A DNA stretch of 64,000 nt. Origin: an uncultured marine group I thaumarchaeote (lineage in GTDB: Archaea; Thermoproteota; Nitrososphaeria; Nitrososphaerales; Nitrosopumilaceae). The notes below the pieces were generated by a model that was given only the letters and a program-made list of their open reading frames with translations, was not told the origin of the DNA and made no database searches. This document shows, in pieces, positions 58,664 through 61,395 of this stretch; the stretch's first letter is position 1, and each line of letters opens with the position of its first letter. The stretch covers positions 1 through 64,000 of the forward strand of contig CACIXQ010000001.1 of assembly GCA_902590655.1 (NCBI GenBank). Direction: 5' to 3'. The translations under genes were made by a program, and so were the position numbers.

Positions 58664-59239
58664 GTGATGATAATTGACATCCCTGATACAGGCATCATGT
58701 TGGTTGCAGTGCTAGCATTTCTCAGTGGTATTGTAACTTTGTACTTGTACAACAAGACAAGAACGGTGGGAGTTTCGGAAAAGATTGCTCCAACTAACCT
58801 GGAACGCATCGACTACTACGAAAAGGAGATGATTGATATGAAAATACGCCTAGATGTTATGGAATTAGATGGTGAAGAGTACACAAAACCAGACTTGCCA
58901 ACGAAAAAAGTAACGTCTTTTGACGTACCAGAAGTGAAGGAACCAGAATTTGTTGCTCCAAAACCAAAGGCAGCAGCACGAGTTCCTAACATGAGTTTTG
59001 AAAAGTCAGTTACATTTGTGTTAGAAAAAATCACAGAAGGTCCGATGACATCACGTGATATTGAAGTGACATTAGGAAAATCACGTGAACATGTTTCACG
59101 GTTGATGAAAAAGTTGTTTGAGGACAATCTTGTTGGTAGAGATACTTCTACCAGACCTTACAGATACACAATTACCGAAAAAGGTAGAGAACGAATTGGT
59201 TCTGGTGATGGTGGCGTTGTTTACGCAGTATCACAGTAA
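58664..59239 (+). CDS. Membrane-anchored winged-helix protein
   Basis: 191 aa from GTG (or ATG at 58667). One N-terminal helix (GIMLVAVLAFLSGIVTLYLY, about 9-28), a coiled-coil/linker region, then a C-terminal winged helix: VTFVLEKITEGPMTSRDIEV, TLGKSREHVSRLMKKLFEDN and YRYTITEKGRERIG. DNA binding from a membrane-tethered position; second such protein in the window after the one at 19.9-20.8 kb. Preceded by ~109 bp with no gene. Confidence 0.8.
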   Translation: MMIIDIPDTGIMLVAVLAFLSGIVTLYLYNKTRTVGVSEKIAPTNLERIDYYEKEMIDMKIRLDVMELDGEEYTKPDLPTKKVTSFDVPEVKEPEFVAPKPKAAARVPNMSFEKSVTFVLEKITEGPMTSRDIEVTLGKSREHVSRLMKKLFEDNLVGRDTSTRPYRYTITEKGRERIGSGDGGVVYAVSQ

Positions 59240-59243
59240 GAGT

Positions 59244-59627
59244 CTAAGGATGTTTTTGTGCTATACGAATGATTTGGTATGACCACTCTCTTCCTACACG
59301 TGCACGCTCAATCTTGTTTCGTGAGGCAAATCTTGCCAAATAGGTAGAAACTATGCTTAGTTTGATAGGCTCATTGTACTCGTCTTCGTACTTTTCAAGC
59401 ACGTCTGAGGAGGTGAATTTGCCTGCTGGGAAGTGATTCTCTACGACATTCCATATCTTGCCTCCTACGGAGTCCAAGTCTGGTGTCTGTTCCTCCTCTA
59501 TGTTCATCAAATCCATTAATTCGAAGAGTTTGAGGACTTTGTCTTTGGTGACGTTACCCTCAATGTCAAACTTGAATTTGGCCCCTTCGGTGTCCTCTAG
59601 GTTTATTCGTATCCTTTTCTGTTTCAT
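59244..59627 (-). CDS. Conserved protein with C-terminal winged helix
   Basis: 127 aa. A β-rich start (MKQKRIRINLEDTEGAKFKF) and a helical/winged C-terminal part (FTSSDVLEKYEDEYNEPIKL, SIVSTYLARFASRNKIERAR). Could be a DNA-binding protein; it starts next to the putative replication origin, which makes a replication-linked role worth testing. Convergent with the membrane wHTH gene. Confidence 0.68.
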   Translation of the reverse strand: MKQKRIRINLEDTEGAKFKFDIEGNVTKDKVLKLFELMDLMNIEEEQTPDLDSVGGKIWNVVENHFPAGKFTSSDVLEKYEDEYNEPIKLSIVSTYLARFASRNKIERARVGREWSYQIIRIAQKHP

Positions 59628-59755
59628 ATCGAGATCTATGAGGATCCTGTGTTAACACTTCAATGGATCCTACAAGTTTTGTTAACAAACGAATTTGTTA
59701 AGATTGACTGCCTGGTCCACGCTGGCCTGTTTTTGGTTGTTAACAGAGGCTGGAC

Positions 59756-59770
59756 TGGAAATAAGGGGGT
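59756..59770 (+). repeat. ORB-like origin repeat 1
   Basis: TGGAAATAAGGGGGT, with the TGGAAA...GGGGG core of archaeal (mini-)ORB elements recognised by Orc1/Cdc6. Exactly repeated 38 bp further on in the same direction. Confidence 0.65.
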
Positions 59771-59791
59771 AAGGTTTGGTTTTGTGCCTAG

Positions 59792-59810
59792 AGTGGAAAT
59801 AAGGGGGTGT
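59792..59810 (+). repeat. ORB-like origin repeat 2
   Basis: AGTGGAAATAAGGGGGTGT; its central 15 bp (59794-59808) equal repeat 1. Same strand and one G-string each. Confidence 0.65.
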
Positions 59811-59932
59811 TTTTGGTCTCTTAACATGTGTTAAGGGTCTTATTAACACCATTAACAAGCAAATAAGCCCATTTTTACCTTCTTTTGTAAAAATATAACC
59901 CGTTATTAACAAATCTCTTCGTTGTGAACCCA

Positions 59933-59950
59933 CACACCTTGGTTTCTACT
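59933..59950 (-). repeat. Degenerate inverted ORB-like repeat
   Basis: Read on the minus strand, AGTAGAAACCAAGGTGTGT, matching repeat 2 at 14 of 19 positions and pointing the opposite way across the AT-rich stretch (the match runs one base further, to 59932), the usual arrangement around an unwinding element. Confidence 0.4.
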
Positions 59951-60159
59951 CTTTTTGTTATAAAAAAATTTTTTATGACAAGAACAAACTAACAAAAACC
60001 AAATCAAAATAACATATTATTCTAAAAATAGATTAGAAATGATGGTGTGTGTGTCATCGATCAAGCCGATCAGAGCATGTCAACCAGAACGATCAATGTT
60101 GTAAAAACGAACTACTGGATCCATTCAAGTGTGAAATTACGATAGATAATGATCTCAAA

Positions 60160-61395
60160 ATGAGTATAACAACTTTGGATCCAGTGGAAAAACTACTAGA
60201 TAGTGCAGAACAAGGTAACTTGTTAATCAAAAACCCAAACGTGTTACGCCATGACTACATCCCAGAACGAATCTTGCATAGAGACAAGCAGCAAGAACTT
60301 GTAACACAATCATTAATTCCATTATACAAAAAATCAATACCACCAAACTTGTTGGTGTATGGCAAGCCAGGAACTGGCAAGACACTTGTAATAAAAAAAG
60401 TACTAAACCAAATTCAAAACAGAGTCGACAAGAACTCACATAAAATCAAGATAGCAACCACAAACGCAAAGGATCAATCAAACCTTTACAATGTGTTGGT
60501 TGACTTGGGCAGACAACTTGGCCTCAAATCAAAAAAGACACCTGACGACAAACTTTGGTTACCAAACACAGGACTATCAATCAGTGAAGTTTTCAATCGT
60601 ATTCTTTACATTATTGACAAAAACAAAATTAATTCCGTCTTTGTAATAGATGAAATTGATCATCTTGCTAAGCTTGTTGACAAGACTGGCAAAGACGTTC
60701 TTTACTCAATTACCAGGGCAAACCTAAAACTAAAAACTGGCTCGTTATCTCTAATTGGAATTTCTAATGACGTCAGATTCAAGGACGAATTAGACCCAAG
60801 AGTAATTAGTACACTTAGTGAGGAAGAACTTGTTTTTCCAGCATATGAGACAAATGAGATTAAAGAAATCTTAGAAGACAGAATACCATTAGCATTTGAG
60901 CAAGACGCTGTATCAAGCGGGGCTTTGAACCTATGTGCTTCTATGGCATGTAGAGAACACGGCGATGCTCGAAGGGCAATCAAATTGTTAGATGTAGCTG
61001 CAAAGACTGCAGAACTAAAACAAGACAAATCCATCACAGACGAGCACATACGTTTAGCATCTCAAAGGATTGAGGTAGACAAGGAATCCCAACAACTTAA
61101 CGCCTTCTCATTACACGAAAAACTACTTGTAATCACCATAATGAAATCCCCAAACATCTCAACCGGAGACATCTACACAGCATACAAATCACTTTGTAAA
61201 ACCACTCACCAAAATACACTCACACAGAGGCGTGTTACACAAATGCTTAATGAGATAGAACTATCTGGTCTCATTTCTGGTAAAATGATCCACCAAGGAA
61301 TTCATGGAAATACAAAGAAATTCAACCTCACAATAACTCCAGATTTGGTCAAAAACACCCTCAAATCTGATGAAATATTCTCAGACGTCTTATAA
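60160..61395 (+). CDS. orc1/cdc6: Origin recognition/Cdc6 replication initiator
   Basis: 411 aa from the ATG at 60160 (MSITTLDPVEKLLDSAEQGN). A GTG at 60049 extends the frame by 37 residues that look unlike the family and include several Cys/His, so I prefer 60160. Walker A YGKPGTGKTLVIKK (about 67-80), Walker B SVFVIDEIDHL (about 160), sensor region SLIGISNDVRFKDELDPRV, arginine region and a C-terminal winged helix (VLTQRRVTQML-like; LTQRRVTQMLNEIELSGLIS). Binds ORB elements and loads MCM. It lies directly beside the putative origin. Confidence 0.93.
   Translation: MSITTLDPVEKLLDSAEQGNLLIKNPNVLRHDYIPERILHRDKQQELVTQSLIPLYKKSIPPNLLVYGKPGTGKTLVIKKVLNQIQNRVDKNSHKIKIATTNAKDQSNLYNVLVDLGRQLGLKSKKTPDDKLWLPNTGLSISEVFNRILYIIDKNKINSVFVIDEIDHLAKLVDKTGKDVLYSITRANLKLKTGSLSLIGISNDVRFKDELDPRVISTLSEEELVFPAYETNEIKEILEDRIPLAFEQDAVSSGALNLCASMACREHGDARRAIKLLDVAAKTAELKQDKSITDEHIRLASQRIEVDKESQQLNAFSLHEKLLVITIMKSPNISTGDIYTAYKSLCKTTHQNTLTQRRVTQMLNEIELSGLISGKMIHQGIHGNTKKFNLTITPDLVKNTLKSDEIFSDVL

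Follow-up and report, generated by a model that had tools for sequence, protein, structure and literature searches.

The window analyzed here is a stretch of 64,000 nucleotides, the first 64 kb of a 110-kb contig (C1) from an assembly of 910,982 bp in 40 contigs that is 74% complete. An intergenic stretch at 59628–60159 is bordered on one side by a single-copy minus-strand gene for a 127-aa winged-helix protein (59244–59627) and on the other by the divergent plus-strand gene of a cdc6/orc1 initiator (60160–61395, start ATG at 60160). The 411-aa product of the latter matches Cdc6_lid, Cdc6_C and AAA, scores above the cut-off of TIGR02928 (E 6e-101) and has its nearest solved chain in 2qby_A (Cdc6 homolog 1; E 4.5e-74), bearing out the original prediction that an orc1/cdc6 gene adjoins the repeats described below; it is the sole copy found in this incomplete assembly. 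Just past the 127-aa gene lies a second winged-helix gene (58664–59239; HTH_27, E 3.8e-6) whose product has a hydrophobic N-terminus.

Four boxes (ORBs) of the TGGAAA...GGGG type, three direct and one inverted, populate the intergenic stretch. The first two contain the predicted pair of exact 15-bp direct repeats, TGGAAATAAGGGGGT, at 59756–59770 and 59794–59808, both on the plus strand. An exact search of the 910,982-bp assembly finds this word at these two places only, and allowing two mismatches adds just three scattered sites with two mismatches each. A degenerate opposite-strand copy had also been proposed and is present at 59934–59951 (minus strand, GAGTAGAAACCAAGGTGT); it was not recovered by a 15-mer search with three mismatches and is weak when taken alone. 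Because a regular expression overlooked boxes in other families, we used a 24-position matrix instead, trained on boxes from twelve other genomes, with neither the window's subclade nor the complete genome of a congener (G025; 1,232,128 bp, same genus) among them. The top four matches of this held-out matrix in the 110-kb contig all fall at this locus, namely ORB2 (59785–59808, plus strand, 34.5 bits), ORB1 (59747–59770, plus strand, 31.8 bits), ORB4 (60031–60048, plus strand; 24-mer at 60025–60048, 21.6 bits) and ORB3 (59934–59951, minus strand; 24-mer at 59934–59957, 17.5 bits), while the fifth and best match elsewhere reaches 10.9 bits. ORB4, a conserved direct box beside cdc6, had been overlooked, leaving the original inventory of boxes one short. 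In the complete congener the four best matches likewise all lie at the cdc6 locus; matches away from it are single and weaker than these four, and the matrix scan revealed no second box cluster.

From the winged-helix gene toward cdc6, the elements follow in the order box, box, inverted box, AT-rich DNA of 80 bp, box and cdc6. This box order upstream of cdc6 is conserved at orthologous loci in the family, the order, the class and other classes, and beyond the class the usual order is direct box, inverted box, direct box and then cdc6. ORB3, with its conserved CCCACACACC extension, is kept across the family and is found as an inverted box in most class and phylum loci read. The idea that the repeats arose by chance or reflect low complexity of the AT-rich intergenic DNA could draw on the degeneracy of the inverted copy when taken alone, but it is refuted by the ranks in the held-out scans and by conservation over many families, and we give it practically no weight. 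A further block kept across the family alignment, TTGACTGCCTGGTCCACG (59704–59721, plus strand), looks like repeated left halves of a box. In one genus-mate (L024), an insertion of roughly 90 bp of unrelated-looking sequence separates the direct boxes from the inverted one, with the box order unchanged.

AT-rich DNA had been expected to separate the direct pair from the inverted copy, but that interval (59809–59926) is just 69% AT compared to 63% for the contig. The real AT minimum was misplaced in the original prediction and lies between the inverted ORB3 and ORB4, where a probable duplex unwinding element (59952–60030) is 84% AT; the 80-mer at 59958–60037 belongs to the least stable 0.08% of the contig's 80-mers. 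With the fourth box overlooked, this element between inverted boxes was overlooked too. Since an AT-rich element in this position is required in Sulfolobus oriC1, we count it in favor of reading the locus as an origin.

The 38-bp spacing of the direct boxes had been suggested to be lineage-specific, and it is indeed confined to five closely related genomes, with 61–62 bp at 34 of 34 other family loci. At these 34 loci, 154–167 bp separate the first direct box from the winged-helix start codon; in the five-genome subclade of the window, the distances of the two direct boxes from this codon are 126 and 164 bp. By these distances ORB2 is the ancestral first box, ORB1 is an addition and the ancestral second box has decayed. 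ORB1 is confined to the five-genome subclade, and its alignment position is missing from the sister clades. The ancestral second box is intact in the sister clades and leaves a remnant scoring 10.9 in L010; its site in the window, 62 bp after ORB2 and around 226 bp from the winged-helix start (59853–59870, plus strand), gives no match. The 38-bp layout is real and is a derived state within the family. Spacings of 59–64 bp recur outside the family, in both the order and the class, and family f2 has three boxes (spacing of around 41 and 62 bp) and family f3 a spacing of 43–44 bp, so that a box near the added position arose or survived elsewhere too.

The window genome is a draft whose 110-kb contig is uninformative for skew, and skew was read in the complete congener. 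There the cumulative GC and AT skews both have their minima at 613.0 kb, which is halfway around the chromosome from cdc6, and the detrended GC skew has its maximum around 4.5 kb from cdc6; skews at third codon positions flip symmetrically between the two chromosome halves. The strand leading away from cdc6 is C- and T-rich, opposite to the common polarity of a G-rich leading strand. Given this unusual polarity, we examined the direction of strongly expressed genes as an independent test, identifying them by short motifs: 16S rRNA, RpoA1, RpoB, a translation-type GTPase and two chaperonin genes are all directed away from cdc6, and coding sequence as a whole shows a slight bias in the same direction (54% and 53%). 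Since the checked genes point away from cdc6, the 613-kb minimum is best read as the terminus. The original prediction had named a skew minimum far from the site as evidence against an origin here, and such a minimum is literally what we find (at 613 kb, with the maximum at cdc6), although in this lineage the polarity is inverted. In a genome of another genus (G033, 49% sampled), the AT skew is lowest at around 690 kb, compared to around 715 kb for the point opposite its cdc6; its GC skew is noisy, and the agreement there comes from AT skew alone. At around 613 kb in the congener (L068:12990–13035), the GC and AT minima lie at most 20 bp apart in a gap between divergent genes, which is likely the terminus region and possibly holds a dif-type site.

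The skew turning point at 613 kb could also be taken to mean that replication begins elsewhere and that the boxes serve Orc1 autoregulation only, as an operator for cdc6 and the divergent gene beside it. This possibility gains from the location of the boxes in a divergent promoter region and from a leader element shared by both genes (see below), which makes shared regulation likely. However, gene direction makes 613 kb the terminus, the matrix scan of the congener showed no other box cluster and only single, weaker matches elsewhere, and 8 of the genomes with separated genes have no boxes upstream of cdc6. We consider it very improbable that the boxes serve as an operator only; an autoregulatory role could coexist with a role in the origin. 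The original prediction of an origin beside orc1/cdc6 is instead strongly supported by the held-out scans, order-wide conservation and the skew turning points of the congener. As the best explanation of the sequence evidence as a whole, we are highly confident that this locus would be the chromosomal replication origin and probably the only one.

AlphaFold predicts that the 127-aa neighbor folds into a winged helix with a strand pair and a helix ahead of it (mean pLDDT 80, mostly above 90 in the winged-helix part). It matches no Pfam family above the cut-off, a profile of the protein found nothing specific in PDB and Pfam, and Foldseek with the model returned generic winged-helix regulators alone (E 6e-3 or worse). 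Relative positions of this gene and cdc6 were tallied by hand from search outputs. In the order, the two genes lie no more than 3 kb apart, and are nearly always divergent, in all 45 genomes that have both. Elsewhere in the class they are adjacent in 18 of 18 genomes that carry both on a single contig (in one case across the circular junction). Beyond the class, they are divergent neighbors in 22 of the 40 genomes examined, 3.4 kb apart in one more and separated in 17; in several genomes of the phylum the gene's family was not found. Eight of the 17 separated genomes have boxes upstream of the winged-helix gene and none within 900 bp upstream of cdc6, at a threshold that gives around 5 chance matches per million bases in the congener, whereas the other 9 (f30, f35 and f49) have the boxes and most TT(A/C)AC sites with cdc6 and not with the winged-helix gene. 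The winged-helix gene therefore has a link to the origin of its own, although not an indispensable one.

The intergenic stretch further contains an array of short TT(A/C)AC motifs. Around nine motifs of the TTAAC type had been counted originally, and the TTAAC/GTTAA matches do reduce to nine distinct sites (59651–59910); the 12 matches in the 530-bp stretch compare to a contig mean of 1.05 and are the highest number anywhere in the contig. Taking one locus each from 22 other families, we counted 107 TT(A/C)AC sites in the interval from the winged-helix gene to the first box, compared to 26.5 (sd 4.7) in dinucleotide shuffles, and 19 tandem pairs 8–10 bp apart where shuffles give around 0.2. 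The window's relatives favor TTAAC and many other families TTCAC, and the window's TTAAC sites are part of a phylum-wide TT(A/C)AC array. The notion that TT(A/C)AC is a mere operator of the winged-helix gene is weakened because the sites mostly accompany the boxes once the genes are separated, with two f35 genomes retaining some near the winged-helix gene.

Both genes also carry a twin leader element, GGATCCATT(G/C)AAGTGT(T/G)AA, at 59652–59670 on the minus strand for the winged-helix gene and at 60117–60135 on the plus strand for cdc6, each ending 25 nt before the start codon. These two copies are the only ones in the 911-kb assembly at up to three mismatches, and in genus-mates both shift in concert to GATCAGTTGA-type words, suggesting that the element may be a shared operator or promoter. 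GATC sites are another feature of the leaders, with five in the 130-bp cdc6 leader (60059–60154), kept at each of the 21 loci examined in the genus, and another three ahead of the winged-helix gene (59633–59669), and the family has a Dam-type methylase (TIGR00571, E 1.8e-88; nearest solved chain DpnM; L143:4589–5449). However, most other family members have no GATC in the cdc6 leader, two genera with the methylase have none in the whole intergenic stretch, and the congener has a denser GATC cluster elsewhere in its genome. Because of this inconsistency across the family, we did not keep methylation-linked control as an explanation and regard it as a lead at most.

Based on these features, we propose that Orc1/Cdc6 made next door would bind the four boxes as oriented monomers and that the inverted pair ORB3/ORB4 would direct MCM to the 80-bp AT-rich element, where the DNA would open. 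Forks would then depart in both directions and converge half a chromosome away. The two direct boxes upstream, together with the TT(A/C)AC array, may form a second assembly platform that assists or limits assembly, with the divergent winged-helix protein as the best candidate for its ligand, and the twin leader elements could couple expression of the winged-helix gene to that of cdc6. The winged-helix protein and the TT(A/C)AC array might thus constitute a second dedicated initiation component in much of the phylum, in which the array-bound protein would promote or restrain Orc1 assembly and adjust the amount of initiator via the twin elements; we put this forward tentatively, at slightly less than an even chance. 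Alternatively, the protein may be a mere regulator of itself and cdc6 that has remained a neighbor by chance through a shared promoter, with TT(A/C)AC bound by another protein such as a nucleoid protein. This would fit the 9 separated genomes that keep boxes and most TT(A/C)AC sites with cdc6, the generic nature of the Foldseek matches, the shared leader elements and the precedent of UBP/ucm in Sulfolobus (PMC12141716), but it sits poorly with the 8 others in which boxes stay with the winged-helix gene and with a single-copy gene that adjoins cdc6 throughout the order and class wherever the two share a contig. A regulator of this kind is a serious contender, though we would not quite call it an even bet.

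The locus provides a base-level origin map for a lineage of abundant marine archaea, showing box spacings that are held fixed and where one subclade shifted a box, and it singles out one small uncharacterized protein and one motif class for direct testing at the origin. With the arrangement of boxes, array and winged-helix gene kept across much of the phylum, this gene is a candidate, open to testing, for a replication factor that has gone unnoticed. If the protein does act at the origin, the initiation machinery of much of the phylum has been missing a part.

Origins with Orc1 boxes are already well known, and we found no description of the winged-helix neighbor or the TT(A/C)AC array in the open-access literature; we provisionally regard the winged-helix partner, the array and the fixed 61-bp spacing as undescribed. 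Nitrosopumilus maritimus has one mapped origin (Pelve et al. 2013, as cited in PMC4010727 and PMC5333045), also called by Ori-Finder 2 (PMC4164010), and shares with the window its family-level lineage and the expectation of a single origin. The Nitrosopumilus-type relatives examined match the window in box order upstream of cdc6 but have a spacing of 61–62 bp where the window has 38 bp and a decayed site. Sulfolobus oriC1 (Orc1-1, ORB1-3, AT-rich element and ucm) similarly has Orc1-type boxes beside an initiator gene and, like the window, inverted boxes around an AT-rich element, and mutating either flanking box abolishes firing (PMC12141716). Beyond this arrangement, the window has an extra direct pair, the TT(A/C)AC array and the divergent winged-helix gene. 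A winged-helix gene beside an archaeal origin is also known from WhiP, the initiator of Sulfolobus oriC3 (PMC12141716, PMC4010727); WhiP defines its own origin, whereas the 127-aa protein lies beside an Orc1-box origin with an orc1/cdc6 gene, boxes and gene whose presence would speak against a WhiP-type origin. UBP/ucm of the Sulfolobales offers an extra sequence element besides the boxes that is bound by a non-initiator protein (PMC12141716), and the window too has a second element of its own. However, ucm sits within the AT-rich element while the TT(A/C)AC sites lie mainly upstream of the first box, and UBP is a saddle-shaped dimer, unlike the winged-helix protein of the window.
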